Below, in pieces: positions 1-30,178 of a stretch of DNA of 64,000 nt. The DNA lies in the NCBI GenBank assembly GCA_030835125.1, contig JAUQWM010000015.1, positions 1-64,000 of the forward strand, written 5' to 3'. Every line of letters begins with the position of its first letter. The stretch's first letter is position 1. A program made the translations under genes and the position numbers. The stretch is from Gemmatimonadaceae bacterium (GTDB taxonomy: Bacteria > Gemmatimonadota > Gemmatimonadetes > Gemmatimonadales > Gemmatimonadaceae). The notes under the pieces were generated by a model that saw only the letters and a program-made list of their open reading frames with translations, did not search any database and was not told where the DNA came from.

Positions 1-55
1 CTCCACCGAGCCCCGCGATGCTTTCCTGTATTCACGCACTCGGATCGCCGCATAA
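1..55 (+). CDS. 3' end of a cassette gene (partial)
   Basis: Frame 2 is open from the window edge and ends in a TAA at 53-55 inside the R'' box of the first attC. Several cassettes downstream end the same way, so this is probably the tail of an upstream cassette gene. Only about 17 codons are visible, with no recognisable family. Confidence 0.3.
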   Translation, partial: STEPRDAFLYSRTRIAA

Positions 56-144
56 CAGCGTTTGCTGCTGACAGCCGGGGTTAGTCTGCTCGCTGTCGCT
101 CGCTCTTTGTTGAACCGGCTGCAGCAGAAACTTGTCCGTTAGGC
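50..144 (+). other. attC site 1
   Basis: R'' GCATAAC at 50-56 and R' GTTAGGC at 138-144 flank L-type boxes GTTTGCTGC and GCAGCAGAAAC. 95 bp, well preserved. Confidence 0.88.
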
Positions 145-174
145 TGCTTCACTGGCACTCGGCGTGAACGCACC

Positions 175-612
175 ATGAGCCTTGCCAAGCCAGTCTCCGT
201 GTTCAACGGCGGAAACCACTCTGGAAGGCCGCGGTGCATCGCTGTGTTCAGCCTCGTTGGACTGTTGAGCGCGTGCGGCGAGCTCATGTCACCTCCGTCG
301 GAACTGGTCGCGACCTTCTCGCAGCTCGACGTTGTTGCCATGACGATCGCAGGGGAGCCGGTAGCGCACGCTACGGTCGACTTGGTTGTCCGGGCTCGGG
401 CTGTTCACTGGGCGGTTATCGACTCGGTCCGGGGCGTGACCGATAGCTCCGGACTGTGCCGATACGACAGGGCATCGCAAGTGACGGGGTGGCATCCACT
501 TGCGATCAGGATTCATCCCCGTGATGGCGTTCCGCGCGTAGTTGCCGACTCAGTGTTGTTCGAGCGAGCGCCCAAGCGACGAACGATCGTCGTCGACTTG
601 TCACTACCGTGA
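175..612 (+). CDS. Putative lipoprotein, cassette-encoded
   Basis: A 145-residue protein with a late hydrophobic signal segment ending in a lipobox-like LLSAC around residue 34, so it is probably a lipoprotein. The mature part (residues 50-145) has alternating short hydrophobic strands and an 'AHATVDLVVRA ... GVTDSSGLCRYD' pattern like carboxypeptidase-regulatory or Ig-like folds. No confident family. It lies alone between attC 1 and attC 2, which makes it a one-gene cassette. An internal start could shorten the long N-terminus before the signal. Confidence 0.65.
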   Translation: MSLAKPVSVFNGGNHSGRPRCIAVFSLVGLLSACGELMSPPSELVATFSQLDVVAMTIAGEPVAHATVDLVVRARAVHWAVIDSVRGVTDSSGLCRYDRASQVTGWHPLAIRIHPRDGVPRVVADSVLFERAPKRRTIVVDLSLP

Positions 613-628
613 CACCCGAGCGGACGCA

Positions 629-761
629 GCCTAACAGGCGTTGCTGCGGACAGGCGAAGGTGTGGATTGCCGCTGCGGCCGGCGGTCGTATCTTGTGTCA
701 GGGTGCCGCCGGCCGCAGCGGCTCTATGTGATCGCCTGCAGCAGAACGCTGTCCGTTAGGC
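629..761 (+). other. attC site 2
   Basis: R'' GCCTAAC at 629-635 and R' GTTAGGC at 755-761, 133 bp. It belongs to the long 'type A' family, whose hairpin carries CCGCGGCCGGCGG-like arms and whose L' is GCAGCAGAACG. Confidence 0.93.
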
Positions 762-866
762 AGCAATTCAGGCTTGGGCGAGCGTGGCTTCGGTCGCAAG
801 CCTCGACTGCTGCGCCCGTCTACGAGGCTGGCCGAAGGCGACCCGACCCCGTACGTTGTTGCCATC

Positions 867-1068
867 ATGAAGGTTAGGGATATACTCCGCCTGTTGCGAG
901 ATGACGGCTGGTACCTTGCCCGAACGAAGGGCAGTCATCAACAGTTCAAGCATCCCTCGAAGCCCCGGGCGAGTCACCCTCGCCGGCGCTCCGAATGACG
1001 ATATCGCGCCTGGCACTCTGAATAGCATTCTTAAGCAAGCTGGTTTGAAGCCGCCTTCCGGGGAGTAG
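867..1068 (+). pseudogene. hicA: HicA toxin (mRNA interferase), frameshifted
   Basis: From ATG 867 the protein begins as a typical HicA: a helix with RDILRLLRDDGWYLARTKGSH containing the conserved G-S-H that carries the catalytic His, then QQFKHPSKP. The frame then slips at a CCCC run near 962-966 and stops at 996-998. Removing one C restores the expected C-terminus (GRVTLAGAPNDD, then NSILKQAGLKPP) to a TAG at 1066-1068. HicA cleaves mRNA and is neutralised by HicB, encoded 4 bp downstream. The shift could be a real inactivation or a sequencing error in the homopolymer. Confidence 0.85.
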
Positions 1069-1072
1069 ACGC

Positions 1073-1288
1073 ATGCAGCGCTATCTGATTGTTCTCGAGC
1101 CCACAGCAACCGGATTCTCGGCGTACTCGCCGGACCTGACTGGCTGTGCGGCGACGGGTGCGACGCGTCCCGAAGTCGAGGAGAACATGCGGCAGGCCAT
1201 TGAACTGCATCTGGAGGGCTTGCGTGAAGATGGTGAGCCCGTGCCGTCGGGCCAGACGATCGCAACCTACGTCGAAGTTGCTGCCTAA
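1073..1288 (+). CDS. hicB: HicB antitoxin
   Basis: This 71-residue protein matches the partial RNase H-like fold of HicB: a first strand YLIVLEPTATGFSAYSPDLTGC, then the GATRPEVEENMRQAIELHLEGL helix. HicB binds and inhibits HicA and may repress its own operon, although no C-terminal HTH/RHH domain is visible in this short form. It starts 4 bp after the ancestral hicA stop, so the two form one cassette operon. Its TAA (1286-1288) lies inside the R'' box of attC 3. With hicA frameshifted, it may now be an orphan antitoxin. Confidence 0.92.
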   Translation: MQRYLIVLEPTATGFSAYSPDLTGCAATGATRPEVEENMRQAIELHLEGLREDGEPVPSGQTIATYVEVAA

Positions 1289-1398
1289 CAGGGTTTGCAG
1301 CTGACAACGGAGCTGCGGTACGCGCGGAGGCACTCGCTTCGCTCGTGTCCACCGCGCGATCTATTTGATCCGTTGCAGCTGAAACCTATCCGTTAGCC
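1283..1398 (+). other. attC site 3
   Basis: R'' GCCTAAC at 1283-1289 and R' GTTAGCC at 1392-1398, 116 bp. It is the clearest example of the 'type B' family: L'' GGTTTGCAGCTG, a loop with CGCGCGGAGGCACTCGCTTC, L' CAGCTGAAACC. Confidence 0.93.
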
Positions 1399-1430
1399 GG
1401 ACTTCACTGGCTCCCGACCCGAACAACAAG

Positions 1431-1874
1431 ATGCGTCAGGACGATTCCTCCGAACCCGCGCGTCGACGAGCCCACCTCGAGGCACAAGTGCGTGCGCTCG
1501 AAGTGAAACGCGATCAGCTTCAGGAGCAAATCGCTGCGCGGCGGTTTGTACCGGTCAACCAGGCCGAAGGCGTAACGCACGCCGTCGCTCAGGCTTCCGT
1601 ACTGGTCACGCTCGAGAAGATCTTGAGCGCGGTTCAGCCGACTCTCACCATGGTTGAAAGCGCGCGAGACGATCTGCTGGCCGACCGGGCAGAAGCAATG
1701 CGCGGCAATGATGCCGCCGGTGCTAGCGAGGCGACAAAAGTCATCGAGCAAGTCGAGGCACTCCGGGTCGAATTCACAGGTACCGTAGCGCAACTGGGTG
1801 CTCTCACCAACACTATGCGAGCATCCCTGCACTCCGACGGTGCCAACGCCGCGCAGGAGCCCGACGCCGGCTAA
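1431..1874 (+). CDS. Coiled-coil hypothetical protein, cassette-encoded
   Basis: The 147-residue protein is charged and mostly helical. Residues 10-45 (EPARRRAHLEAQVRALEVKR onwards) form a strong coiled-coil heptad pattern, and a second helical region covers residues 60-130. There is no signal peptide or membrane span, so it is likely cytoplasmic. Family unknown; size and helical layout resemble the cassette gene at 23173. The TAA stop (1872-1874) falls inside the R'' box of attC 4. Confidence 0.7.
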   Translation: MRQDDSSEPARRRAHLEAQVRALEVKRDQLQEQIAARRFVPVNQAEGVTHAVAQASVLVTLEKILSAVQPTLTMVESARDDLLADRAEAMRGNDAAGASEATKVIEQVEALRVEFTGTVAQLGALTNTMRASLHSDGANAAQEPDAG

Positions 1875-1999
1875 CAGACGTTGATGCTGTCAGTCGAGGT
1901 AGGGATGGCCGCCGCGGCCAGCGGTCGTATCTTGAGGAAGGTGCCGCCGTCCGCGGCGGCTCTATTTGATCGCCTGCAGCAGAACGCTATCCGTTATGC
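1869..1999 (+). other. attC site 4
   Basis: R'' GGCTAAC at 1869-1875 and R' GTTATGC at 1993-1999, 131 bp. Type A hairpin with GTCGTATCTTGAGGAAGG in the middle. Confidence 0.9.
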
Positions 2000-2018
2000 C
2001 GCCAATCCTGGAGCCTGT

Positions 2019-2555
2019 GTGAGGACTCGCACTGTGTGCGTCGCGATAGCGCTCCTGCTGCTTCAAGGCGGTGCATCGGAACGTGCCTTCGCGCAGGCGA
2101 GCGAGGACCCGGAAGGTCGCCTCCGCGCGCTTGGTCTCACCCTCCCCTCATCCAATGTCCCGGCGGGCAACTATGTGAGCGCGGTTCGCACGGGCAACCT
2201 CCTCTACCTGGCAACGCACGGGGAATGCGGAACGCCGTTGCGTGGCAAGGTCGGCGCCGGCGTCAGCGTGGATAGTGCTTACGCATCTGCTCGTCGGGTT
2301 GCGCTCTGTATGCTGGGCACCTTGAAGACCGAGCTTGGGGATCTGCGGCGAGTGGTGCGGATCGTCCGTGTCACGGGCATGGTCAACTCGGCCCCCGACT
2401 TCACCGACCAGCCCAAAGTGATCAATGGCTGCTCCGACCTACTGGTCGCGGTGTTTGGCGACAAAGGTCGCCATGCCCGAGGCGTTCTCGGCGTCGCCTC
2501 GATGGCGGATGGACGCACCGTCGGGATCGAAATGATCGTCGAGGTGCGGGACTAG
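2019..2555 (+). CDS. Secreted RidA/YjgF-family protein
   Basis: Starting at GTG 2019 gives a signal peptide (CVAIALLLLQGGAS, cleavage after AFAQA) followed by a complete RidA-like domain of about 150 residues: AGNYVSAVRTGNLLYLATHG, a GVSVDSAYASARRVALCMLG helix, then VVRIVRVTGMVNSAPDF and GVLGVASMADGRTVGIEMI. It resembles the YjgF/UK114 subfamily with chorismate mutase-like trimer topology. The subfamily's enamine deaminase activity is not assured, and a secreted location is unusual. The longer upstream ORF is rejected because it would translate attC 4. Single-gene cassette. Confidence 0.85.
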   Translation: MRTRTVCVAIALLLLQGGASERAFAQASEDPEGRLRALGLTLPSSNVPAGNYVSAVRTGNLLYLATHGECGTPLRGKVGAGVSVDSAYASARRVALCMLGTLKTELGDLRRVVRIVRVTGMVNSAPDFTDQPKVINGCSDLLVAVFGDKGRHARGVLGVASMADGRTVGIEMIVEVRD

Positions 2556-2573
2556 AGGCGCCGCTTCGTTGCG

Positions 2574-2706
2574 GCATAACAGGCGTTGCTGCCGACAGGC
2601 GAAGGCGTGGATTGCCACCGCGGCCGGCGGTCGTGTCTTGCTTCAGGGTGCCGCCGGCCGCGGTGGCTCTATTTGATCGCCTGCAGCTGAACGCTATCCG
2701 TTAGGT
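2574..2706 (+). other. attC site 5
   Basis: R'' GCATAAC at 2574-2580 and R' GTTAGGT at 2700-2706, 133 bp, type A. The best-formed site of the window: arms CCACCGCGGCCGGCGG and CCGCCGGCCGCGGTGG are nearly perfect complements. Confidence 0.95.
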
Positions 2707-2748
2707 ATCAAACGCGTTACTCGTTGTGACCGAGGCCGGATCATTCAC

Positions 2749-3594: not shown

Positions 3595-3595
3595 A

Positions 3596-3733
3596 ACCTA
3601 ACGGGAAATTGAGCCAGACAATCGGCGCCAACATTCGCGGGCTCGCATAGACCGCGGTAAGGCAGACGTCACCACGCCAGTAAAGGGACGCGGCTTGTCG
3701 CGCCGCTTGCAGGCTAATTCATGGGCGTTAGAC
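3596..3733 (+). other. attC site 6 (divergent type)
   Basis: R'' ACCTAAC at 3596-3602, L'' AAATTGAGCC, L' GGCTAATT and R' GTTAGAC at 3727-3733, 138 bp. The L boxes pair with one extrahelical G, but the sequence is unrelated to types A and B, so the cassette probably came from a different integron lineage. Confidence 0.82.
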
Positions 3734-3785
3734 CGCCCTTTCACGATCTCGTTGTGTCAACCGGTCAAAGCCGAAGGGAGGAACT

Positions 3786-4685: not shown

Positions 4686-4697
4686 GATCTCAAGGCG

Positions 4698-4815
4698 GTC
4701 TCACGTGTGTTGCAGCAGACGGCGGACCATGGAAAGCGCGCAGGCGTTCGCTTGCGCTCGCGTCCAGCGCACAGAATGGTTTGATCCGCCGCAGCCTGAA
4801 CGCTATCCGTTAGGC
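4698..4815 (+). other. attC site 7
   Basis: R' GTTAGGC at 4809-4815 and L' GCCTGAACG are intact. The R'' box is weak (GTCTCAC at 4698-4704). The loop GCAGGCGTTCGCTTGCGCTC is type B-like. Confidence 0.8.
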
Positions 4816-4828
4816 ATTCGCCAAGATC

Positions 4829-5302
4829 ATGCTTGGAGGTCTCCGAGTCGCTCTGTGCGGGTTGGCGTTGGCCGCCGGTGCTGGCGCTGACGCCGCCGGT
4901 TAGGGTTGGCCGGCCGCCGATAGCACCGTGATCGCTGGACTACGGCGGTCGGCGCCGTGTCCCTCGAATCCACCGACAAGCTGGTCGCGCCCCGATTCGT
5001 TGCTGCCAAAGTCGTCCCGGTGCCACCTGGTCGTCGCAGCGCTTGCCGCGATGTCCAGCAGCCCGGATTCGCTGATCCGAAATGGCGCCCGGGACGCGGT
5101 GTGCGTAGGTGTTTACGGATTCGCGTTTCCGACCCTACCAGAGGATGGCACCGGACAGGCATACTGGACGGTAGAGTTTGTGGGATCGGACGGCAGCGCC
5201 GTGGGAGCGTACATTGACCGAGCGACTGGAGCAGCGCGACCGGCCCGATTCCCGAATGAGTTCGGAGTGCCCGTCTCGAAGGTCTGTGGCGGCGATGCCT
5301 AA
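4829..5302 (+). pseudogene. Small secreted protein, probably interrupted
   Basis: ATG 4829 opens a good signal peptide (VALCGLALAAGAGA) that ends at a TAG (4901-4903). The same frame reopens and from about residue 75 gives a plausible mature domain (VCVGVYGFAFP, AYWTVEFVGSDGSAVGAYID, then FGVPVSKVC), resembling a PepSY-like strand-helix unit. In between, a different frame looks better coding (VSLESTDKLVAPRFVAAKVV). This fits a gene with an internal stop and compensating frameshifts. The TAA lies in the R'' of attC 8. An intact short ORF from 4928 is the alternative. Confidence 0.42.
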
Positions 5303-5412
5303 CAGGGTTGCAGCTGCAGCCGGAGTTATGGTACGCGCGGAGGCACTCGCTGCGCTCGTGTCCATCGCGCGAGTGTGTTTGATCCGGCGCAGCTGAAACC
5401 TATCCGTCAGCC
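5297..5412 (+). other. attC site 8
   Basis: R'' GCCTAAC at 5297-5303, type B hairpin and L' CAGCTGAAACC, but R' is GTCAGCC (5406-5412). It is the first site with the T-to-C change at the crossover-proximal position. Confidence 0.88.
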
Positions 5413-5736
5413 AGACGAGGAGCGCCTCATCGCTCAGCGACTGGCCCTTCGAGCGACGATTGCCTTCCTCGCGCTGCCGGGCATCGTCGCTTTCGCGTTG
5501 CCGCTCCTCTGGCTGCGACCGGCAGGCGCTGGGTTCACCCGATGTATGTCGGCGTCCTGCTGGTCACGGCCGGTTGGGCGGTGGGCTTTCGGTCCTGGAC
5601 GCTGGCCGGCTACACGGGCGCGCTGCTGATCGCGTTTCACCTGCGCGTGCTGCTCCACGAGGAGCCGTGGCTCGCACGCACGTTCGGCGCCGAGTGGGCC
5701 ACGTACCGCGCGCGCGTTCCACGTTGGCTGCTGTGA
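5413..5736 (+). pseudogene. Isoprenylcysteine methyltransferase-like membrane protein, internally deleted
   Basis: Two frames carry the two ends of one gene. The first (to about 5525) encodes an N-terminal membrane helix (TIAFLALPGIVAFALPLLWL). The second (5530-5736) encodes the C-terminus HPMYVGVLLVTAGWAVGFRS, then LHEEPWLARTFG and YRARVPRWL, typical of the ICMT/PEMT-like methyltransferase family, where the region before NPMYVG and the EEP..L...FG..Y motif bind SAM. The middle, including the RGPYRYVR segment, is missing and the frame shifts at the join. No good start codon is visible. Inactive remnant. Confidence 0.7.
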
Positions 5737-5752
5737 GTGGGCGCCGTGCGAG

Positions 5753-5893
5753 ACCGCTAGCTATCGATGGTTGGTGCAGAAGGCCGTGCTTCGGGAGCGG
5801 GGGCGCGGCCCCCGCTCCATGCCCGAGGCGGACTCGCGGGGGCCGCGCTCCCGCATTCTATTTGAACGGCCACAGCACAACCTGACGTCAGAT
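5753..5893 (+). other. attC site 9 (degenerate)
   Basis: A large GC-rich hairpin (GGGAGCGGGGGCGCGGCCCC paired with GGGGGCCGCGCTCCC) is flanked by GGTTGGTGCAGAAGGCCG and its complement-like GGCCACAGCACAACC. It ends in a GTCAGAT R'-like box at 5887-5893. The R'' box is unclear. Confidence 0.55.
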
Positions 5894-5921
5894 CGCAATC
5901 GAACTCGCCGCGCACGTCCGA

Positions 5922-7514
5922 ATGCTCACAACTGCCAAGCCCCGGGGACACATGACAACGCCGGACAACGGATTGCTAACACGTCCTGCAACGGCGTTGT
6001 CTCGCCGCCAGGCACTCGGACTTCTGGCCGCCGGAGCACTCACTCCCGTCGGTCGCTGGTCGCTTGTTCGGTCGGACACAAGTAGCGCTGGTGACCCGCT
6101 TCACTATCTGAGTCTCCGTGAAGTCGCACGGCTCATTGCGACACGCGAACTCTCGCCGGTGGAGCTCACTCAACACATGCTCGATCGCATCGCGAAGCAC
6201 GATCCGATCCTCGAGAGCTACGCAACGGTCACGCACGATCAAGCGCTGGCCGATGCACGCGCCGCGGAGCGCGAAATCGCCGCCGGCAGATACCGTGGAC
6301 CGCTCCACGGCGTGCCGCTCGCGCTGAAGGATCTCATCTGTACGAAGGGTGTCCGCACCATGGGTGGATCCTTGGTACACAAAGCCTTCGTGCCGAGCTT
6401 CGATGCGACGGTCGCTTCGAAGCTGCGTTCCGCCGGCGCCGTGATGCTCGGGAAGCTGAATCTGACGGAAGCCGCGTCGGCGGGGTACAGTCCAACCTTC
6501 GGTGTGCCACGCAATCCGTGGAATATCGACTATTGGCCCGGTCTCTCATCGAGCGGGTCGGGCGTCGCGACTGCCGCGGGGCTGTGCTTCGGGTCGCTCG
6601 GCACCGATACGGGTGGATCAATCCGGTTTCCATCCGCGGCAAACGGCGTCGTCGGACTCAAGCCGACGTATGGTCGCGTCAGCCGATACGGCGTGCTGCC
6701 GTTCGCCGAGTCGCTTGATCATGTGGGGCCGATGGCGCGCACGGTCGGTGACGTCGCCATCTTGTGTGACGCGATCGCGGGACGCGATCCCAACGATCCG
6801 ACATCAGTGGACGCGCCGCCGCCGACCGCGTTCAGAGATCTTACACAGGACACGCGCGGCGTCCGGATCGGCATCGATCGGAAGTACGCGCTGGATGGTG
6901 TCGACGCCGGCGACGCGGCAGCGCTCGAGGAAGCGCTCCGCGTACTCGCGTCCCATGGCGCGCAGATCGTCGATGTCCGCATGCCCGACCTGTCGGCGTT
7001 GCTCGATACCTGGCGGACGATTGCGACAGCCGAGATGGCGCAATCACAGGCGGCGACATATCCATCGCATGCGTCCGAGTATGGTCCCTACATGCGCGAC
7101 TTTCTCGCGGATGGAGCGCGCGTGACGCCCGCGCACCTCGCTCAGGCCAGGAAGAAGGGCTCGCAACTCAGCGCGCAGTTCGCCGCGATGCTTGACTCTG
7201 TTGACGCGATGGCATGTCCGGCCGGCGGCGCTCCCGCATGGCGCGTGACGCGAGCGATCCAGACAGGCCCGGCCGCCGAGCTTCACCAAGCCTGGGGCGC
7301 GGCCGCGCCGCGCGCGATGGATTTTGCCGCGCCGATGGACCTGGCGGGGACACCGACGATCTGTCTGCCGTCCGGGTTCTCGCCGGGCGGCCTGCCCTAC
7401 AGCATTCAACTTGCCGGCCGCCAGTTGAGTGAACCAATGCTCTGCCGTATCGCCAACACATACGAGCAGGCGACGAGTTGGCACGGACGACATCCCGACC
7501 TGGACACGCTGTAG
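5922..7514 (+). CDS. Amidase (amidase-signature family), Tat-exported
   Basis: A 530-residue amidase-signature hydrolase, which cleaves amide bonds with a Ser-cisSer-Lys triad. The Lys is in LALKDLI (Lys136), the cis-Ser in the SSSG run at 209-211, and the nucleophile Ser233 in GTDTGGSIRFPSA. The N-terminus has a twin-arginine motif SRRQALGLLAAGAL, so export is likely. ATG 5952 (MTTPDNG) is an alternative start. At 1.6 kb it is one of the largest cassettes here. Substrate unknown; it is not assumed to be GatA because no gatB or gatC is nearby. Confidence 0.92.
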   Translation: MLTTAKPRGHMTTPDNGLLTRPATALSRRQALGLLAAGALTPVGRWSLVRSDTSSAGDPLHYLSLREVARLIATRELSPVELTQHMLDRIAKHDPILESYATVTHDQALADARAAEREIAAGRYRGPLHGVPLALKDLICTKGVRTMGGSLVHKAFVPSFDATVASKLRSAGAVMLGKLNLTEAASAGYSPTFGVPRNPWNIDYWPGLSSSGSGVATAAGLCFGSLGTDTGGSIRFPSAANGVVGLKPTYGRVSRYGVLPFAESLDHVGPMARTVGDVAILCDAIAGRDPNDPTSVDAPPPTAFRDLTQDTRGVRIGIDRKYALDGVDAGDAAALEEALRVLASHGAQIVDVRMPDLSALLDTWRTIATAEMAQSQAATYPSHASEYGPYMRDFLADGARVTPAHLAQARKKGSQLSAQFAAMLDSVDAMACPAGGAPAWRVTRAIQTGPAAELHQAWGAAAPRAMDFAAPMDLAGTPTICLPSGFSPGGLPYSIQLAGRQLSEPMLCRIANTYEQATSWHGRHPDLDTL

Positions 7515-7632
7515 CGTCGCAGTGGCATCACGTCCCAGCTCGGCGGCGAAATCCAAGCCGGACAAAGGGCAGATGGTGTCGCGGGACCCGTCACGTCGAG
7601 GTTCGACTCGCCCGCGATCCGACGTGCGCTGC

Positions 7633-7716
7633 ACCTGACAAGGGAGCTATGGATTGCGCCGGGCTCCGCCCGGCGCTCTCATACGATTCCCTTGCAGATG
7701 AGCTCAGGCGTTAGCC
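7633..7716 (+). other. attC site 10
   Basis: R'' ACCTGAC at 7633-7639, L'' GAGCT and L' AGCTC, a short GCGCCGGGC/GCCCGGCGC hairpin and R' GTTAGCC at 7710-7716. 84 bp, distinct from types A and B. Confidence 0.75.
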
Positions 7717-7730
7717 GGACAGGAGACCTT

Positions 7731-8180
7731 ATGACTCATGCCGATGACTGGGCCGCAGTTCACGCGATCCTTGCGCGCCAAGTGCCGGAGGTCGCCAACG
7801 GTACCGTTGAGCTGCGTCGGATCGCTCGAGAACCCGGTCGGCGCACGAAACTTGCTGTCGCCTCGCTCTCACCCGATTTGGATCCGGTTGTCGCGTGCGT
7901 CGGGCCCAAGGCCACCCGAGTAAATGCCCTTGCTGCGGCGCTAGGCGGAGAGCGTATCGACATCCTGCCCTGGTCCGATGCACCGGAACGCTTTGTGACG
8001 CTCGCACTCGCACCGGCGCGCGTGCGATCGGTGGAGCTCGACCTGCCTCGGCACCGAGCCGTTGCTCGCGTCTCACCCGACCAACTTGACATTGCCCGCG
8101 GTCAGGATGAACTCAACGCTCGGCTTGCGAGTGAACTCACGGGGTGGACGGTGGCCGTCGTCGCGGGTGATGCCGGCTAA
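7731..8180 (+). CDS. Stand-alone NusA KH1-KH2 domain protein
   Basis: After an AGGAGA ribosome site, ATG 7731 starts a 149-residue protein that aligns over its length with the KH1-KH2 region of transcription factor NusA: VPEVANGTVELRRIAREPGR, ALGGERIDILPW, then LNARLASELTGW. The NusA N-terminal RNAP-binding and S1 domains are absent. Both GXXG loops have changed (GPKA and GQDE for GPKG-like and GRNG-like), so RNA binding may be altered. It could compete with or modulate NusA. The TAA at 8178-8180 is inside the R'' box of attC 11. Confidence 0.9.
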   Translation: MTHADDWAAVHAILARQVPEVANGTVELRRIAREPGRRTKLAVASLSPDLDPVVACVGPKATRVNALAAALGGERIDILPWSDAPERFVTLALAPARVRSVELDLPRHRAVARVSPDQLDIARGQDELNARLASELTGWTVAVVAGDAG

Positions 8181-8290
8181 CAGGGTTTGCAGCTGGCGAC
8201 GGAGCTATGGATGCGCGGAGGCACTCGCTTCGCCCGTGTCCATCGCGCAGTCTTATTGAATCCGTCGCAGCTGAAACCTATCCGTTTGGC
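8175..8290 (+). other. attC site 11
   Basis: R'' GGCTAAC at 8175-8181, type B hairpin, L' CAGCTGAAACC and R' GTTTGGC at 8284-8290. 116 bp. Confidence 0.9.
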
Positions 8291-8308
8291 AGCCACAGCA
8301 CTCTACCG

Positions 8309-8947
8309 ATGCCACAAACGCCCATGGCCGAAGCCTCGGTTCCGAATCCCGCCCTTAGCTCGTGGCGCGTCCTGGTTGGCGAATGGGTCACCGTCGGCTC
8401 CCACCCGTACATGCCGGGCATCACCTTGCACGGTCGAACGGTCTTTGAATGGCTTGCGGCCGGCGCCTTTTTTATGATGCGCTCGGACATTGACGAGCCA
8501 GGCATTCCCAGTGGCATCGCCATCATTGGCACTGACGATGCCAAGAGCGAGTGTTCGATGCTCTACTTCGACGAACGCGGTGTCTCGCGAAGGTATGAGG
8601 TATCGCTGCGAGGAAACGTTCTGAGATGGTGGCGCAATGATCCTCACTTCTCTCAACGCTTCACTTGTACGATCAGCGACGGTGGTCGCACTATGGTCGG
8701 TAAGGGAGAACTCTCCAAGGACGGGGCGCCTTGGGAGCCAGATCTTGCACTCACCTATACCAAGACCCAATCACCAAGCGTACTTTGCCGAGGCTGCCGA
8801 ACAAGGTTGGCAGCCGGCAGCGGGTATTGTACGCGCGGAGGCGGTCGCTTCGCTCACGGCCACCGCGCGAAATCATTTCATCCGCTGCAGCTGAACCCAA
8901 CCGTTAGGCGGCGGAAACACTTGTTGCCCAAGCCCTTCGACCTATGA
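8309..8947 (+). CDS. DUF1579-like protein reading through its attC
   Basis: The recognisable domain covers residues 1-155: SSWRVLVGEWVTVGSHPYMP, then GRTVFEWLAAGAFFMMRSD, GIAIIGTDDA, MLYFDERGVSRRYEV, and a lipocalin-like C-terminal strand LALTYTKT. It resembles the DUF1579/FABP-like fold. No stop follows: the frame runs on through attC 12 and ends at 8947 with about 55 residues of attC-encoded sequence, overlapping the next gene's ATG. The natural stop was probably lost by mutation or cassette truncation. ATG 8324 is another possible start. Cytoplasmic. Confidence 0.75.
   Translation: MPQTPMAEASVPNPALSSWRVLVGEWVTVGSHPYMPGITLHGRTVFEWLAAGAFFMMRSDIDEPGIPSGIAIIGTDDAKSECSMLYFDERGVSRRYEVSLRGNVLRWWRNDPHFSQRFTCTISDGGRTMVGKGELSKDGAPWEPDLALTYTKTQSPSVLCRGCRTRLAAGSGYCTRGGGRFAHGHRAKSFHPLQLNPTVRRRKHLLPKPFDL
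8796..8909 (+). other. attC site 12
   Basis: R'' GCCGAAC at 8796-8802, type B loop GCGCGGAGGCGGTCGCTTCG, L' CAGCTGAACCC and R' GTTAGGC at 8903-8909. It lies within the open frame of the preceding gene. Confidence 0.88.
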
Positions 8948-9398: not shown

Positions 9399-9475
9399 GG
9401 CTGACAGGCGTTGCCGCTGGCGGTGGCGCGTCGGTGCCGTTGGTGCCCCCGCAGCAGAAACGCTATCCGTTAGCC
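9399..9475 (+). other. attC site 13 (short)
   Basis: R'' GGCTGAC at 9399-9405, L'' GCGTTGCCGC, L' GCAGCAGAAACG and R' GTTAGCC at 9469-9475. 77 bp with a reduced loop. Confidence 0.85.
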
Positions 9476-9542
9476 AGCGCGATTGCTGTCTTGACCGCGA
9501 TGTCGACACTCTAACGTGCCGCGCGCCTTCGATGGAGATTCG

Positions 9543-12421: not shown

Positions 12422-12537
12422 GCCTGACAGGCGTTGCGCAGACGGAGGAGCCGTGGGGGGTGCGCGCTGGCACTCGCTCTGCTCGTGTCCAGCGCGCAGT
12501 CTTATGGAATCCGCAAGCTGAACGCTATCCGTTGGAC
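12422..12537 (+). other. attC site 15
   Basis: R'' GCCTGAC at 12422-12428, L'' GCGTTGCGC, type B loop CTGGCACTCGCTCTGCTCG, L' AAGCTGAACG and R' GTTGGAC at 12531-12537. 116 bp. Confidence 0.85.
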
Positions 12538-12584
12538 GCGCATCCGGCTTCCATCCTTCAGGAGCCTCAAAGCCCGGCTGCGCC

Positions 12585-14889: not shown

Positions 14890-15020
14890 GCCTGACAGAC
14901 GATGCTGCTGGCAGCCGAGCTGGGGATGGACGTCGCGGCCGACGGTCGTACCTTGTGCCATGGTGCCGCCGGCCGCGGCGGCTCCGTTGGATCGCCTGCA
15001 GCAGAACGCGTCCGATACGC
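14890..15020 (+). other. attC site 17
   Basis: R'' GCCTGAC at 14890-14896, type A hairpin and L' GCAGCAGAACG are present. R' has decayed to about GATACGC (15014-15020). Confidence 0.82.
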
Positions 15021-15661: not shown

Positions 15662-15796
15662 GCGCATGACGGGCAGTGCTACTGACGGGCGAGGTGGGGT
15701 AGCCCCCGCGGCCGGCGAACGTATCTTGAGGAAGGTACCACCGTCCCGGGCGGCGATGGTTGCTGTTCGCGCGCCGCAGAATGCTATCCGTCAGGC
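15662..15796 (+). other. attC site 18
   Basis: R''-like GCATGAC at 15662-15668, type A centre (CGTATCTTGAGGAAGGTACC), L' CGCAGAATGC and R' GTCAGGC at 15790-15796. 135 bp. Confidence 0.78.
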
Positions 15797-15827
15797 GGCC
15801 TGACCGAATGACCGGAGACAGCCAGTC

Positions 15828-16289: not shown

Positions 16290-16422
16290 GACCAACAGGC
16301 GTTGCTGCCGACAGGGCGAAGGTGAGGATTGCCGCCGCGGCCGGCGGTCGTATCTTGAGGAGGGTGCCGCCCTCCGCGGCGGCTTCATAAAAGCGCCTGC
16401 AGCAGAACGCTATCCGTCATGG
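16290..16422 (+). other. attC site 19
   Basis: R'' GACCAAC at 16290-16296, L'' GCGTTGCTGC, type A hairpin, L' GCAGCAGAACG and R' GTCATGG at 16416-16422. 133 bp. Confidence 0.87.
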
Positions 16423-16525
16423 CGACCTGCATCACTTGCGGTCCGGTTTCTGTGCAAGCTGGTAGCGCTGCGTCAGCACTCGGCGCAACCGGAGCCTTTG
16501 TACCCGGTGCTCGCGACGACCACCT

Positions 16526-17677
16526 ATGAAACCTTCTGTCAATCAGATTGCCTGGGCGGCGGTGCTCGTCGTTGCCGTTGGAAACGTGAGTGCGGCACAA
16601 GCTACGGCACCGAATACACAGCGGATGGACGAACTCGTCCAGTTCTACGCCGACGACCCGCAGGAAGCCTTCATGGGTGTAGTGCTCGTGGCCAGGGGCT
16701 CGGAGGTGCTATTCGCCAAAGGATACGGCATGGCGAACCTGGAATGGGGCATCCCGAATACGCGTGCCACCAGGTTCAGTATTGGCTCGAACAGCAAGCA
16801 ATTCACCGCGGCCGCCATCCTGCTGCTCGAAGAGCGCGGAAAATTGCGGGTGACTGACTCGATCAAGTCGTATTGGCCGGAGGCCCCAGCGGCGTGGATC
16901 GGCATCACGTTCCACCACCTGCTTTCACATACGTCGGGCCTGACAGGAACCGCTCCGCTCGAGCGGGGAATGGGGGCCTTGCCAGCGCGCCCGCAAGCGA
17001 CGGTGGACCGATTTCGGAACGCGCCGCTCCTGTTTGCACCGGGAACCAGGTTCACCTACAGCAATGCCGGCTATCAGCTCCTGGCGTTCCTGATCGAGCG
17101 AATTTCCGGGCAACGTTACGAGGACTTCTTGCAGGAAAACATCTTTACGCCGCTCGGCATGAAGGACTCCGGGTCGGACACGTACGCCTCGATCATCCCA
17201 TCACGGGCGTCGGGCTATGTGCGAGCCGGCGGAGCGGGCCGCGCCTCCACAAGCTCGACCGGGCGGCCTGCGCTCGCGAACGCCCCGTTCCTGGACAAAT
17301 CGAATGGAATGGGCGCGGGCAGTCTCTACTCGACGGTCGGAGATCTGCATCGCTGGACGCTTGCTCTCTTCGGTGGAAAGGTCCTCAACGCCAGTTCGCT
17401 GACCAGACTGACGACGCCCACGCCATTCGACACTTCGTATGCGTACGGCATCGGCGTTGGCAGCCATGACGGGCGCCGCCGGTTTTCACACGGAGGATCC
17501 GTTCCCGGTTTCGCGTCGATTCTCAACTATTATCCGGGGTCGCAGGTGACAGTCGCCGTGTTGCGCAACAGCACGACGCCTCCCACGCCCGGGGAACGGC
17601 GAGTGACTACAGTGATCGCAGACGGGCTCGGCACGCTCGCACACGGCGGCGCTGTCCCCGTACCGACGAAGCGATAG
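16526..17677 (+). CDS. Secreted serine hydrolase, beta-lactamase class C / esterase fold
   Basis: This 383-residue protein has a signal peptide (AWAAVLVVAVGNVSAAQA) and the penicillin-binding-protein-like serine hydrolase motifs: S-x-x-K in SIGSNSKQF (Ser88, Lys91), Y-x-N in FTYSNAGYQ, and HGG in FSHGGSVPG. The family includes class C beta-lactamases, DD-peptidases and esterases; the specific substrate cannot be read from the sequence. Periplasmic. Single-gene cassette. A second member is encoded outside the array at 49258. Confidence 0.92.
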   Translation: MKPSVNQIAWAAVLVVAVGNVSAAQATAPNTQRMDELVQFYADDPQEAFMGVVLVARGSEVLFAKGYGMANLEWGIPNTRATRFSIGSNSKQFTAAAILLLEERGKLRVTDSIKSYWPEAPAAWIGITFHHLLSHTSGLTGTAPLERGMGALPARPQATVDRFRNAPLLFAPGTRFTYSNAGYQLLAFLIERISGQRYEDFLQENIFTPLGMKDSGSDTYASIIPSRASGYVRAGGAGRASTSSTGRPALANAPFLDKSNGMGAGSLYSTVGDLHRWTLALFGGKVLNASSLTRLTTPTPFDTSYAYGIGVGSHDGRRRFSHGGSVPGFASILNYYPGSQVTVAVLRNSTTPPTPGERRVTTVIADGLGTLAHGGAVPVPTKR

Positions 17678-17826: not shown

Positions 17827-17954
17827 GGCTGACAGGCGACGCTGCTGGCGGGCGAATTGGGGATTGCCGCCGGGGTCGGCGGTCCCATCTTGAGGGAGGT
17901 GCCGCCGTCCGGGGCGGCGATGTTTGATGCTCGCCAGAATGCTATCCGTCAGAC
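17827..17954 (+). other. attC site 20
   Basis: R'' GGCTGAC at 17827-17833, type A hairpin (CCATCTTGAGGGAGG centre), L' CGCCAGAATGC and R' GTCAGAC at 17948-17954. Confidence 0.83.
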
Positions 17955-17966
17955 AGCGGAGTCCCT

Positions 17967-18274: not shown

Positions 18275-18389
18275 GCGGTCAGCCAGCGCCTCGTGTCGCC
18301 CAGGACCTGGTACGCGCGGAGGTACTCGCTGCGCTCGTGGCCACCACGCGGTGCCACTGTGCACTGCAGCTGAAACCCATCCGTCAGGC
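18275..18389 (+). other. attC site 21
   Basis: Right half is type B: GCGCGGAGGTACTCGCTGCG loop, L' CAGCTGAAACC and R' GTCAGGC at 18383-18389. The R''/L'' half is eroded, so the left edge is estimated from type B length. Confidence 0.68.
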
Positions 18390-18398
18390 CGCCATCCC

Positions 18399-18719: not shown

Positions 18720-18813
18720 CTCGAACGTGGTTTGCAGCTGACCAGCGAGGTTGCGGGAGCGGCCTCACCGCTTGCGCCATACTTCGCTTGCAGCTGACAC
18801 CGATCCGTCAGGC
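18720..18813 (+). other. attC site 22
   Basis: R'' CTCGAAC at 18720-18726, L'' GGTTTGCAGCTG, L' GCAGCTGACACC and R' GTCAGGC at 18807-18813. 94 bp, with a loop unlike types A and B. Confidence 0.75.
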
Positions 18814-18822
18814 GGGTATCTC

Positions 18823-19993: not shown

Positions 19994-20500
19994 ATGCAGG
20001 CACCGCCGCAGCCAAGCTTGTCCGTACGGTGGCGTCAACGACTTCCCGCGCGCACTCAGTGGCGTCTTCGAGCGGCCCAGCTGATCCTCGTGCTGGTCCT
20101 CGCACTGGGCGGGGTCGCCTGCGGGACAGCCGGTCGTCGTTCTGGCGACGAGTGGACAGCCGCGCAACGCCTTCTTGCCTCCAGTCGCGGTGCGGACTCT
20201 GCATGCTCGGCGTGGCCGAAGGCGGCCTCGCAGTCGAGGGATGCGCTTGGCGTGATCCGTCAGGATCCGTCGACGGGAACCACATGCTTTCAGGGTCCGC
20301 GGGATGTTCCTGTGCGGCTGGATGATCACTGGCTTTGTCCAGGCGCCGCCGACTACACGCTCTTCCAGAAACTCGACGCCGAACGCGTCGCCCGTCTGGA
20401 GGTTAGCCGCGACCGGGCGGAAGTCGGCCGTGCGAACTGCCCGGGATGGCACGACGGTGTGATTCTTGTTCGCCTGAAACCGGGCCGTGACGCCACCTGA
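19994..20500 (+). CDS. Putative lipoprotein, cassette-encoded
   Basis: From ATG 19994 the 168-residue protein has an Arg-rich N-terminus, a hydrophobic segment and lipobox (LVLALGGVAC, Cys about 43). The mature part has several Cys (about 70, 97, 113 and 149), which suggests disulfides. No family recognised. The TGA stop (20498-20500) lies in the degenerate R'' box of attC 24. Confidence 0.6.
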   Translation: MQAPPQPSLSVRWRQRLPARTQWRLRAAQLILVLVLALGGVACGTAGRRSGDEWTAAQRLLASSRGADSACSAWPKAASQSRDALGVIRQDPSTGTTCFQGPRDVPVRLDDHWLCPGAADYTLFQKLDAERVARLEVSRDRAEVGRANCPGWHDGVILVRLKPGRDAT

Positions 20501-20567
20501 CCGGGCATTGCTGCTGTCGGGCGATCGGCTCGGCTTGATCGCCTGCCGCAGAACGGTGACCGGCGTG
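20495..20567 (+). other. attC site 24 (short, degenerate)
   Basis: R''-like ACCTGAC at 20495-20501, L''-like GCATTGCTGC and L'-like CCGCAGAACGG; the R' box is not recognisable. It sits directly before attC 25. Confidence 0.6.
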
Positions 20568-20577
20568 CGGCGCCGCC

Positions 20578-20706
20578 GTCTTACAGGCGTTGCAGCAGAA
20601 GGGCGAAGGTGTGGATTGCCGCCGCGGACGGCGGTCGTATGTTGAGGGCGGTGCCGGCCACGGCGACGCCATGTGAACGCCTGCAGCAGAACGCTATCCG
20701 CTAGGC
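20578..20706 (+). other. attC site 25
   Basis: R''-like GTCTTAC at 20578-20584, L'' GCGTTGCAGC, type A hairpin, L' GCAGCAGAACG and R' GCTAGGC at 20700-20706. It forms a tandem pair with attC 24, with no gene between. Confidence 0.85.
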
Positions 20707-20710
20707 AGCT

Positions 20711-21128: not shown

Positions 21129-21227
21129 ACCTGACAGGCGCTGCTACTATCGGCGGGCCATGGGTGCGCTCGTGTCCACCGCGCGATATTGCTGGATCCG
21201 CCGCAGCTGACCTGCGATCCGTTCGGG
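21129..21227 (+). other. attC site 26
   Basis: R'' ACCTGAC at 21129-21135, L'' GCGCTGC, type B-like loop (GCTCGTGTCCACCGCGCG), L' CAGCTGACC and R' GTTCGGG at 21221-21227. 99 bp. Confidence 0.75.
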
Positions 21228-21286
21228 CGACCGGGGTGACCAGCGCGGGCCTCGTCGTTTGCGTCGTTCCCGGAGATCCCTTCCTG

Positions 21287-24284: not shown

Positions 24285-24478
24285 GCCTGAAGTCGGTCGC
24301 GAGGCGAAGGTCGCGTCAGGGCGCGCGTCCTACTCTGCCTCGAACCCACGGCGGACACGTGCTTTCGAGGACGACGGCCAATCGCTACGTTTTGCGCGCC
24401 CCCCGCGTTCTTCCCTGGTGGCGTCCTTCCTCAGGTTGCGCACACTCCCATGACACCGGTGACGATCAGCGCGTCGTG
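24285..24478 (+). other. Intergenic segment before the kinase gene
   Basis: 194 bp with no gene and no recognisable attC between the DUF1801 gene and the kinase gene. Confidence 0.4.
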
Positions 24479-27716: not shown

Positions 27717-27802
27717 TGCCTCTGTGCTGCGTTCCTGCCTGCGCGGCCCAGCACCCAGGGTCGCCCGGGCCGTTTCGCACACCCATGTGTGGCCCTCGGT
27801 CA

Positions 27803-27933
27803 GCCTGACCGTCATGGCTTGTTGTCGGGCGAGGTGAGTGGCCGTCGCGGCTGGCGGACGTATCTTGAGGAAGGGACCGCCGTCCGCGGCGGCGATTGTC
27901 GATGTCCACCCGCGACAGGGTTCTCCGTACCGC
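27803..27933 (+). other. attC site 30 (type A, R' decayed)
   Basis: R'' GCCTGAC at 27803-27809 and the type A core CGTATCTTGAGGAAGGGACC are clear. The R' position reads GTACCGC (27927-27933). Confidence 0.75.
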
Positions 27934-27961
27934 GGAGTGCAGCCAGGGAGTGGCCCTCATT

Positions 27962-28462: not shown

Positions 28463-28469
28463 CACGCCT

Positions 28470-28545
28470 GCCTGACGGGCGTTGCCGTCAACCAGCGCGT
28501 CAGGGCGCGTTATTGGGAGCTGCGGCAGAACGTTCTCCGACAGGC
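28470..28545 (+). other. attC site 31 (short)
   Basis: R'' GCCTGAC at 28470-28476, L'' GCGTTGCCG, a GCGCGTCAGGGCGCG loop, L' CGGCAGAACG and R'-like GACAGGC at 28539-28545. 76 bp. Confidence 0.72.
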
Positions 28546-28566
28546 GGCGACGGAGACGGAGGACTC

Positions 28567-28695
28567 ATGCGGAGCACGCGCCGGGGAGTGCAGTGCCTGC
28601 GGTGGGCAACGGCGCCAACGGCCTTCGGTCTGCTCCTTGCTCTCGCATGCTCCGGTGACGGGCCGCGAGGCCTCTCCCTGCATGAACGCAGATAG
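28567..28695 (+). CDS. Short lipoprotein leader ORF
   Basis: A 42-codon ORF encoding a basic N-terminus, a hydrophobic segment and a lipobox (FGLLLALACSG), then stopping within 15 residues. It may be a small lipoprotein or the detached leader of the NTF2-like gene 24 bp downstream, which is in another frame and lacks a signal. Confidence 0.38.
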   Translation: MRSTRRGVQCLRWATAPTAFGLLLALACSGDGPRGLSLHERR

Positions 28696-28718
28696 CCATC
28701 GTCTCACCGAGGTGCGAT

Positions 28719-29144
28719 GTGATGCCAGGCCGACAGGAGACGCTTCACGAGTTCTTCCGTCGGTACGCGGGCTTGTCGCTTGGCGGGGACCCCGCGAAGC
28801 TCGCCGGGTTCTACGACGCGAGCTTCCTCGCAGCAGGGCCCAGGGGTGGAGCGGCCTTCAAGAACGACGAGGCCTTTGTCGCCTGGCTGCGAGAACTGCA
28901 CGCGTTCAATAGCCGGACCGGGATGACGTCCATGATCATCGATGACATCCGCGAGATTCCGGTTGGTGCTGGCTATTCGCTCGCCACGGTGACCTGGGCC
29001 GCCACGTTTCATCGGACCGGCGACACTCCGATCCGATTCACGATCTCGTACCTGCTTCGCGAGGCCGAGCCACATCGGAAGGTGGCCGCGTACATCTCGC
29101 ACGAGGATCAGGAGGAGGCGATGCGTGCCCAGGGACTGTTATGA
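28719..29144 (+). CDS. NTF2-like (SnoaL-type) protein
   Basis: The 141-residue protein is a complete NTF2-like domain: ETLHEFFRRYAGLSLGGDPA, AKLAGFYDASFLAAGPRGG, then GAGYSLATVTWAATFHRTGD and FTISYLLREAE. GTG 28719 is followed immediately by ATG 28722, either of which could be the start. No signal peptide, unless the leader at 28567 originally belonged to it. The stop overlaps the ATG of the next gene (ATGA), so the two are translationally coupled in one two-gene cassette. Confidence 0.78.
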   Translation: MMPGRQETLHEFFRRYAGLSLGGDPAKLAGFYDASFLAAGPRGGAAFKNDEAFVAWLRELHAFNSRTGMTSMIIDDIREIPVGAGYSLATVTWAATFHRTGDTPIRFTISYLLREAEPHRKVAAYISHEDQEEAMRAQGLL

Positions 29145-30082
29145 GCGGTCGCAACGTGACGAGTATCATCCTCGTCCTCACGGTTCTTGTTCCCGCTGTT
29201 GTGGCGGGGCAGGACATCAAGCTTACCCTCCTGGGCACCGGGGCTCCGCCGCCCGTCATGAATCGATTCGGGCCGAGCATCCTCGTTGAAGTCGGGGGCC
29301 GGAAATTCCTGTTCGATGCGGGCCGAGGTGCCCTGCAACGCCTCGGCCAACTCGGAGTCCGCTGGCAGGACGTGGACGGCGTCTTCTTCACGCACCTTCA
29401 CTCGGATCACGTGGTCGGGTTTCCCGATCTCTGGTTGACGGGCTGGCTCGTGAGTCCGGGACGCGACCGTCCGCTCTCTGTTCGGGGTCCGACGGGAACC
29501 AGGAACATGATCTCTCATCTGGAGAGGGCCTATGAGTTCGACATCCGGTTCCGGGTGCAGGATGACCGTGCGGCACCAGACGGTGTCGTCGTCCTGGCCG
29601 AGGACCTCCGTGAGGGGGTCGTGCTCGAGGAAGGGGGGCTGAAGATCACGGCGTTCGAGGTGGATCACGAGCCGGTGGAACCGGCGTTCGGCTACCGCAT
29701 TGACTATGGCGGCCGCTCGGTTGTGCTCTCGGGGGACACCCGCGCCTCGCCGAACCTGATTCGGCACGCTCAGGGCGTCGATCTCCTCGTCCATGAGGTA
29801 GCGTCACCCGAGACATTCCAGCGAGCCGGAGTGGGGCCGGAGCGCGCCAGGACGGTGATTGAGCATCACGTTACTCCGGAACAGGCCGGAGCAGTGTTCG
29901 CCAAAACGAACCCCAGGCTTGCCGTGTATTCGCACATTGTCCTGCCCATTGCGACGGAGGACGATCTGATCCCACCGACGCGCAAGACGTACCAGGGGCG
30001 GGTCGAGATCGGCGAGGATCTGATGGTGATCGAGGTGGGAACGAAGATTGAGGTTCGCCGACCCGGTCGCCCGTCCCCCTGA
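29141..30082 (+). CDS. Secreted MBL-fold metallohydrolase (RNase Z/arylsulfatase-like)
   Basis: A 313-residue metallo-beta-lactamase-fold protein with a signal peptide (IILVLTVLVPAVVAG). Metal motifs: LLGTGAPPP strand, THLHSDH (His85, His87, Asp89, His90), a later Asp in LSGDTRASP and His in AVYSHIVLP. The order and GTGxP N-terminus match the RNase Z/AtsA-type subgroup of secreted hydrolases; two zinc ions are expected. Substrate unknown; the export signal makes tRNA processing unlikely. ATG overlaps the preceding stop. Confidence 0.9.
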   Translation: MSGRNVTSIILVLTVLVPAVVAGQDIKLTLLGTGAPPPVMNRFGPSILVEVGGRKFLFDAGRGALQRLGQLGVRWQDVDGVFFTHLHSDHVVGFPDLWLTGWLVSPGRDRPLSVRGPTGTRNMISHLERAYEFDIRFRVQDDRAAPDGVVVLAEDLREGVVLEEGGLKITAFEVDHEPVEPAFGYRIDYGGRSVVLSGDTRASPNLIRHAQGVDLLVHEVASPETFQRAGVGPERARTVIEHHVTPEQAGAVFAKTNPRLAVYSHIVLPIATEDDLIPPTRKTYQGRVEIGEDLMVIEVGTKIEVRRPGRPSP

Positions 30083-30178
30083 CTCCGGCGGCAGGGTTAG
30101 TTTCTGGTCCGAGGGCCGGACGGACCAGGGGCGACTCCCTTGACGCAGAGTCGTGACGCTGAACGTTATCCTCGCATA
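30077..30178 (+). other. attC site 32 (degenerate, last recognised)
   Basis: R''-like CCCTGAC at 30077-30083, a GGTCCGAGGGCCGGACGGACC-type loop, L'-like ACGCTGAACG with TTATCC spacer, and no GTTRRRY box. I take it as the distal limit of the array. Confidence 0.48.

Follow-up and report, generated by a model that had tools for sequence, protein, structure and literature searches.

The integrase gene and its cassette array

The window, that is the whole analysed stretch of 64,000 nucleotides, begins at the edge of a 181-kb contig (C63) of a draft genome of 73 contigs. It carries an array of attC sites, about one per gene, all on the plus strand and with R''/R' boxes and paired arms with bulges. 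The first 141 bases (1-141) are identical to the final 141 bases of a second contig (C46), and the genome contains no other 100% copy of them. The last genes of C46 are an integron integrase gene (intI) and a GNAT acetyltransferase cassette, with a candidate attI in between. The GNAT reading frame starts on C46 and crosses into the window, where its final 55 bases (1..55) end at the first attC. The putative join of the two contigs rests on the 141-base assembly overlap and places intI at window coordinates -1657 to -632, as an open frame transcribed toward the array. A preliminary description of this DNA had rightly reported that the window holds no integrase, its absence being due to the contig boundary at position 1. 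It had also expected one to the left and had suggested an upstream search for an IntI with the extra patch domain; the gene on C46 answers to both.

The predicted IntI scored 388 bits against TIGR02249 (cut-off 265) and 252 bits against the structure of the Vibrio cholerae integrase (2a3v), with an alignment of residues 19-327 that spans the extra patch region. R145, K170, H276, R279, H302 and Y311, which we take to be the catalytic residues, are invariant across 14 IntI sequences. The candidate attI core, CCGTTATGC, lies 128 bp 3' of the intI stop codon and was chosen by eye, without an attI model; similar cores were seen, also by eye, in several of the 26 loci printed. A search for sigma-70-type promoters around intI and the first cassette (L012:10900-12500) returned no sites where 0.2 were expected, and the promoters of this phylum may differ.

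The features below lie on the plus strand unless stated otherwise, and bit scores are those of the broader covariance model R2. The first five sites, attC 1 (50..145; 70.8 bits), attC 2 (629..762; 97.2), attC 3 (1283..1399; 105.3), attC 4 (1869..2000; 88.9) and attC 5 (2574..2707; 86.4), all have the crossover triplets AAC/GTT. Their cassettes encode proteins of 145 aa (175..612) and 147 aa (1431..1874) without a Pfam match, a HicB-like antitoxin (1073..1288; PF15919) and a protein with a YjgF/RidA-like domain (1881..2555), the start codon of which is uncertain because the listed ORF overlaps attC 4. There follow a divergent attC-like element (3596..3734; 27.8 bits; AAC/GTT), attC sites at 4698..4816 (81.5; imperfect R'' box) and 5297..5413 (84.4; AAC/GTC), attC-like elements at 5759..5894 (52.7; altered triplets) and 7617..7717 (47.3; GAC/GTT), and attC sites at 8175..8291 (95.3; AAC/GTT) and 8796..8910 (82.2; AAC/GTT), the latter being the last with both triplets intact. 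An amidase gene (5922..7514; PF01425) in this part is flanked by attC sites.

The remainder of the array starts with a short attC (9399..9476; 51.6 bits; GAC/GTT) and continues with sites at 12422..12538 (71.2; GAC/GTT), 14890..15017 (71.1; altered triplets), 15664..15797 (70.6; GAC/GTC), 16292..16423 (73.5; R' GTC) and 17827..17955 (41.9; GAC/GTC). Then come attC-like elements at 18278..18390 (27.7; R' GTC), 18722..18814 (37.6; R' GTC) and 20495..20569 (26.9), an attC at 20578..20707 (64.8; TAC/GCT) and an attC-like element at 21129..21228 (43.9; GAC/GTT), with which the clear array ends. Beyond it lie two attC remnants, at 27803..27934 (29.7; folding no better than shuffles, z -0.6) and 28470..28546 (24.5; z -1.4). 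This part also contains a metallophosphoesterase gene (12585..13865; PF00149) and a gene with a Pfam Beta-lactamase domain of the serine hydrolase fold (16526..17677; PF00144). The claim that each site stands 3' of a plus-strand gene is mostly accurate, one exception being an ORF of 373 aa with CarboxypepD_reg domains on the minus strand (10,991-12,112).

Two covariance models were used to delimit the array. R1, trained on 14 window elements and searched with filters off, recovered 23 plus-strand sites scoring at least 21 bits (E <= 0.008), including the 14 training sites and all within 50-28,546; its top minus-strand match in the window had 15.0 bits. R2, built on 100 sites, recovered 25 plus-strand sites at E <= 0.0013. 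At E <= 0.1 it gave six minus-strand matches in the window, each the mirror image of a strong plus-strand site, and no match in 28,547-64,000. The earlier estimate of about 32 sites over 30 kb was thus too high, the models giving 23-25 within the first 28.5 kb. With 25 sites (R2) the locus has the many cassettes and related attC of a superintegron, and it exceeds the threshold of 10 attC suggested for sedentary chromosomal integrons in the available part of the IntegronFinder 2.0 paper (PMC9024848). The location on a chromosome proposed in the preliminary description is putative, the genome being a draft and the Gemmatirosa integron standing on a second replicon of 1.1 Mb.

The covariation score of the 100 sites was 0.312 versus at most 0.036 in slid controls, the alignment being fitted to the structure, and that of the 14 unfitted sites was 0.147 versus at most 0.049. 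For these 14 sites two of five covariation measures were not above shuffles; pairs changed on both sides numbered 4 against a shuffle mean of 4.9, and further pair types 10 against 11.1. The bottom strands of six proximal sites fold with z values of -3.4 to -8.9 (the latter in attC 2) and the top strands about equally well (-3.3 to -7.3), so that the choice of the bottom strand is taken from general knowledge of integrons. A comparison of the window with Rfam, at gathering thresholds, was without a match, which says little given that no general attC family is known to us in that collection. Searching for the boxes with a simple regular expression recovered too few sites for use.

Layout and nature of the element

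The integrase gene points in the same direction as the cassettes, the so-called inverted integrase layout, which is known from Treponema among others. When R1 was applied to 20 other intI loci of the phylum, 78 matches were found at E <= 1, 76 of them located 3' of intI on the same strand as the gene. The matches fall in 12 of the loci, with none in the other eight, and the layout is co-directional in all 12 phylum loci with attC matches adjoining intI. Together with the covariance models and the covariation, this transfer bears out the original identification of an attC array.

The IntI tree, from one FastTree run, contains a group of 55 rows (local support 91, not starred) with 43 Gemmatimonadota rows, eight of the nine other co-directional rows and none of the eight divergent ones. 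The ninth (L082) lies outside, its co-directional call resting on a match with an E value of 0.09. Within the group the Gemmatimonadota rows do not form one clade. The tree leaves out 23 stretches shorter than 250 residues and collapses identical sequences, and among the 80 named loci the weakest may represent tyrosine recombinases of another kind. By this tree, the IntI of the present locus falls with those of other co-directional integrons.

We are highly confident that the bacterium, a member of the Gemmatirosa family, has at this locus a complete sedentary integron, consisting of intI, a candidate attI, the GNAT cassette and the 25-site array. It could in principle be a CALIN, an attC cluster without an integrase of its own, with the intI of C46 belonging elsewhere. 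The window itself is without intI, and clusters of attC that lack an IntI above the cut-off also occur in the host genome and in two other genomes (G073 and G129). However, the exact overlap occurs only at the ends of these two contigs, and the GNAT frame of C46 continues to the first attC, which makes a CALIN very improbable. Dispersed palindromic repeats of the REP or MITE type that merely resemble attC come into view because 11 elements of the same family (E <= 0.002) are found on four further contigs (C26, C59, C25 and C29), with a few additional attC-like ones on C59. The preliminary description had reasoned that dispersed copies lacking box conservation would speak against attC; copies do occur elsewhere in the genome, but their boxes are largely conserved. 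Moreover, repeats of this type would hardly show R''/R' boxes, bulged paired arms and a spacing of about one per gene, or lie all on one strand next to an integron integrase, and the linkage of the same elements to the 3' side of intI across genomes contradicts them, so that the chance of this explanation is practically negligible.

An empty-site comparison for single cassettes at attG sites, made with one dispersed locus against 59 genomes of the family, returned mostly matches to a protein kinase gene family. In G298, the sole other genome of the host genus in the sample, the left flank of the dispersed locus was matched at 79% over 0.5 kb. One contig of G298 (C524) carries seven attC and has no IntI; in a search repeated with a positive control, none of its DNA matched the window, C46 or C63:64,001-84,000.

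The anatomy, the conserved hairpins and the open integrase frame are direct observations. Integron integrases bind attC hairpins formed by the folded bottom strand, excise cassettes as circles and reinsert them at attI. By analogy with this established biology, the integrase would recombine the attC and attI sites of the array, and new cassettes would enter at the left end, since reinsertion takes place at attI. The first cassettes may be expressed from the vicinity of attI or by transcription that continues out of intI.

Wear along the array

Of the 12 sites before 9.4 kb, 8 retain both triplets, AAC and GTT, intact; none of the 13 sites after it does, and the far part of the array therefore looks frozen. 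Past about 9.4 kb, where sites have lost one or both triplets, recombination would be slight or absent and the genes would be fixed.

The frozen appearance of the far half is probably due to neutral ageing, in which mutation without selection erodes the sites of old cassettes distant from attI. The R2 scores drop with distance along the array (rho -0.69, p 0.0001), scores in the last quarter are lower in the arrays of G129, G080 and G073 (not significantly in G158, p 0.18), and the final two sites of the G298 cluster are altered too. What fits neutral ageing less well is the pattern of change: nine alignable distal R' boxes show GTT to GTC in five, whereas the preceding ATCC and the G are unchanged in all nine, and four other arrays of 23-81 kb have kept AAC/GTT in 174 of 197 sites. 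A selection of nine sites is small, however, and shared attC descent could mimic recurrence. The box count omitted 7 of the 25 sites, and the four distal ones among these show more widespread alterations, in line with what neutral decay would predict.

A tentative and rather unlikely alternative is an active front of about 9 kb followed by a frozen rear, in which changed attC triplets lock the cassettes and make captured genes permanent. Some distal sites with GTT to GTC also show the matching TAAC to TGAC, and three sites of the rear have GAC/GTC on both arms; pairing would therefore be kept. If such a front and rear existed, the same could operate in other Gemmatimonadota, whose last array sites tend to lower scores. 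The frozen sites would then correspond, at the level of attC, to the inactivation at the level of the integrase that the accessible text of PMC12444791 reports for Xanthomonas.

Integrons in Gemmatimonadota and related systems

Integrons have been studied mostly in Proteobacteria. An integrase over the TIGR02249 cut-off is present in 102 of 298 sampled Gemmatimonadota genomes (about a third) and in about 60 of the 103 genomes of the host family, and the arrays counted in three genomes of the phylum comprise 39, 53 and 81 attC. The contig-end count comprised 60 minus-strand integrase matches over the cut-off, and dnaA was taken as the origin in the replication-orientation count. The array of 53 attC, that of G129, may run against the replication fork. 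The proposed assignment to Gemmatimonadota is supported, since the host family (f1) includes Gemmatirosa kalamazoonensis (NZ_CP007129.1).

That large integrons are little described in this phylum is a fair statement but not an absolute one, considering the large element of G. kalamazoonensis KBS708 in PMC9024848. In the portions of the open-access literature that our search covered, Gemmatimonadota integrons appeared only in lists of phyla and in this one case, and other reports may exist. The present integron is ordinary in kind and instructive in scale and decay: the inverted integrase layout and a large Gemmatirosa integron are already known, the worn far half with its altered triplets is less familiar. 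With frequent integrases, arrays reaching 81 attC and a single, co-directional layout in the 12 loci with attC adjoining intI, the phylum is therefore well suited to studying the expression of cassettes toward which intI is directed, the distance over which arrays stay mobile, and whether it follows the preference in replication orientation that has been described for large integrons (for orientation work on the V. cholerae superintegron, see the part available of PMC11023631).

Among the closest known systems is that of KBS708, of the same family, with an IntI that is 56% identical, a co-directional intI and attC on the same side and strand. Its 81 attC extend over 46 kb. Unlike the present array, it is located on a second replicon of 1.1 Mb, and both triplets are intact in 77 of its 81 sites, with no frozen half. 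The chromosomal integrons of Treponema, as far as the excerpt of PMC3607928 goes, have an 'atypical' layout, in which transcription of intI proceeds toward attI and thus the same way as the cassettes run. This direction of intI is as found here and one Treponema IntI falls in the same tree group, although the phylum is another and the single Treponema locus (L091) is without an R2 match. The superintegron of V. cholerae resembles the present array in being sedentary and in having many cassettes whose attC are related, but it has the classic layout with a divergent intI and far more cassettes. Its integrase shares the extra region (2a3v), whereas the single Vibrio IntI in the tree (L125) sits in a distant branch.

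The integrase and attC sites of the array

The draft genome of the host amounts to 4.48 Mb in 73 contigs (99% complete). Since the window is the first 64,000 bases of its contig (C63; 181,387 bases) and begins at the contig edge, the sequence left of the array was invisible to the preliminary description, which had proposed an integrase search there. A single protein in the whole genome passes the TIGR02249 profile (388 bits versus a cut-off of 265). It matches at 24082-25011 of another contig (C46; 25,829 bases), 818 bases short of the end, and the final 141 bases of that contig are identical to window positions 1-141. In a genome search this stretch was present at 100% identity only at these two contig ends, and the order therefore is intI, candidate attI, GNAT, attC 1. 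In window coordinates (negative values lie leftward, on C46), intI (341 aa, + strand; by profile and contig overlap) spans -1657 to -632, the candidate attI core CCGTTATGC lies at -504, between intI and the frame of a GNAT acetyltransferase, and this frame ends at 55 and is followed by attC 1. IntI scored 252 bits against 2a3v, the solved integrase of V. cholerae, with an alignment spanning the region that distinguishes IntI from XerC/D. The array has a G+C content of 63.9%, lower than the 68.1% of the sequence on its right side and the 69.6% of C46.

In an alignment of 14 elements 85% of the cells pair in the structure read from those same elements, and the covariation score was 0.147, versus at most 0.049 with partners slid by 1 to 3 columns. 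Of five measures, three were above nearly all shuffles; the two counting pairs changed on both sides and further pair types were not. The covariance model from 14 sites (R1), run with filters off, found 23 window sites of at least 21 bits, all on the + strand and between 50 and 28,546, the best - strand match reaching 15.0 bits. A model from 100 sites (R2), whose alignment was fitted to the structure, has changes on both sides in 17 of 18 pairs and a covariation score of 0.312 (at most 0.036 when slid); it counted 25. Both models recovered attC sites in smaller number than the ~32 proposed. Because 14 of the 23 window sites had trained R1, its test at other integrase loci is the independent one. 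At 20 such loci of the phylum R1 gave 78 matches at E <= 1, spread over 12 loci; 76 matches lie 3' of intI on its strand, and the two exceptions are both weak (L065:14923, E 0.24; L055:612, E 0.64). The remaining 8 loci yielded no R1 match at E <= 1, and several of these contigs stop shortly past intI. Six sites before 9.4 kb from the left of the array (proximal) were folded, with z -3.4 to -8.9 for the bottom strands and about equal values for the top strands (-3.3 to -7.3). Far right of the array, a weak R2 match (L013:17399-17533, at ~81.4 kb of C63; 22.2 bits, E 0.005) is either a remnant or due to chance.

The Pfam scan covered 31 proteins: the GNAT protein plus 30 ORFs chosen by eye in the window as far as 30,082, some perhaps not genes. 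Over the cut-off were GNAT, HicB-like antitoxin, YjgF/RidA, amidase, KH domain, carboxypeptidase-regulatory domains, metallophosphoesterase, OmdA, Beta-lactamase (PF00144), DUF1801 and a metallo-beta-lactamase fold; 17 of those 30 ORFs lacked a match at E <= 0.01. Much of an attC-poor gap is occupied by a protein kinase with PD40 repeats (948 aa; 24,233-27,079).

Changes in the distal array

The farther a site lies from intI, the lower its R2 score tends to be (n = 25, rho -0.69, p 0.0001). Taken at the box positions of R2, the crossover triplets (AAC in R'', GTT in R') are both intact in 8 of the 12 sites before 9.4 kb versus none of the 13 after (Fisher p 0.0005). Two of the latter (16,292 and 18,722) have kept AAC and lost GTT alone; three (9,399, 12,422 and 21,129) have kept GTT, with AAC changed to GAC. 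Nine distal R' boxes align gap-free; GTC has replaced GTT in five of them, and all nine retain the ATCC and G ahead of it (p 0.00004). This concentration is less clear than the p-value suggests because the four omitted distal sites are altered more widely. Four of the 13 distal sites, chosen by hand, folded at z -0.6, -2.6, -0.6 and -1.4. The training of both models was weighted to proximal sites; the folding and triplet evidence is independent of it, but few in number.

Both triplets are kept in 174 of 197 sites across four other arrays of the phylum (G129, G080, G158 and G073), in G129 along most of its 81 kb, and therefore distance alone is not the cause. The correlation of score with distance is smaller in these arrays (rho -0.24, -0.34, -0.19 and -0.27, respectively) and significant in G080 alone. 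We read these sequences as those of an array whose rear would no longer be mobile, whether the cause was neutral or selected. In the one other sampled genome of the host genus, a cluster of 7 attC (G298:C524:9770-20704), without IntI on its contig, has altered cores in its final two sites.

Dispersed attC sites

On the whole host genome R1 gave 38 matches at E <= 10. Outside C46 and C63, 11 matches had E <= 0.002: seven on C26, two on C59 and one each on C25 and C29. Together with a few more on C59, the dispersed sites lie at C26:69403-70046, 142174, 151772-152571, 159972 and 169564, C59:121332-128388, C25:53688 and C29:34807. They are solitary or in small clusters; boxes are recognisable in most and perfect in some, and some have core changes like those of the distal sites. 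A copy of attC 1 (50-145), 87% identical, lies at C26:69954-70042 and hints at exchange between the array and the dispersed locations. For such clusters, off-target insertion has been proposed as one origin (PMC8618304, in the text available), and the dispersed sites are possibly natural off-target cassette insertions; in a comparison of one dispersed locus with 59 genomes of the family no empty site could be demonstrated. Part of the kinase gene (24351-25317) shows 90% DNA identity to a stretch of C26 (~143.9-144.9 kb) lying 1.6 kb past an isolated attC, and has many weaker matches throughout the host family.

Integrons of the phylum and kinship of the integrase

Among 298 genomes of the phylum, evenly drawn from a larger set, 102 have an IntI over the cut-off, as do ~60 of the 103 from the host family (from E-values). 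The top match of the host IntI among plasmid records is Gemmatirosa kalamazoonensis NZ_CP007129.1 (1,106,233 bases, with the integrase at 856,833-857,771), and in G080, which belongs to the same family as the host, the integrase lies at 856,836-857,774; the host family is that of Gemmatirosa. The large Gemmatirosa element was already noted with IntegronFinder 2.0, the replicon being called a probable secondary chromosome (PMC9024848, in the text available), and a 2021 review names Gemmatimonadota in its list (PMC8618304, likewise). By R2, arrays comprise 81 attC over 46 kb (G080), 53 over 81 kb (G129), 39 over 23 kb (G158) and 24 over 27 kb (G073); counted by hand, clusters away from any over-cut-off IntI add 50 sites to the G073 count and 29 to that of G129. 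For 48 ORFs of the G129 array the Pfam matches include ParE (2), CopG antitoxin, PemK, Fic, HNH (2) and two C5 cytosine methylases, hence toxin-antitoxin and possible defence genes.

In the host, intI points along the cassettes. Contig ends across the sampled phylum agree with this layout: the 3' end of minus-strand over-cut-off integrase matches lies no more than 1500 bases from the contig start in 31 of 60 cases, versus 1 of 58 for the 5' end of plus-strand matches, an asymmetry to be predicted were assemblies to break in arrays 3' of intI. R2 matches at E <= 0.1 were obtained for 19 of 80 named loci encoding relatives. Ten of these are co-directional (1 Gemmatimonadetes, 5 Acidobacteriota, 3 Planctomycetota and 1 weak Chloroflexota) and nine divergent, some also weak. 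A FastTree tree built from 99 sequences places 43 Gemmatimonadota inside a group of 55 rows (local support 91, not starred), which also takes all but one of the 9 other co-directional rows, includes one row each of Treponema, Actinomycetota, Vicinamibacteria and Krumholzibacteriota, and holds none of the 8 divergent rows. An 'inverted integrase' group is known (available text of PMC10500605), and Treponema integrons have this layout (PMC3607928, as far as available). Judged by layout and the Treponema row, the 55-row group is this group.

With dnaA as origin (weakly supported by GC skew, sampled in G129 and G073 only), intI, and by layout the array, is co-oriented with the fork in G019, G039, G074 and G198. 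It runs against the fork in G129 (C1:2333039-2414859), G073 (C1:757-784 kb) and G183. In these three the bottom strands of attC would fall on the lagging template, contrary to the preference that PMC11023631 (available text) describes for large integrons.
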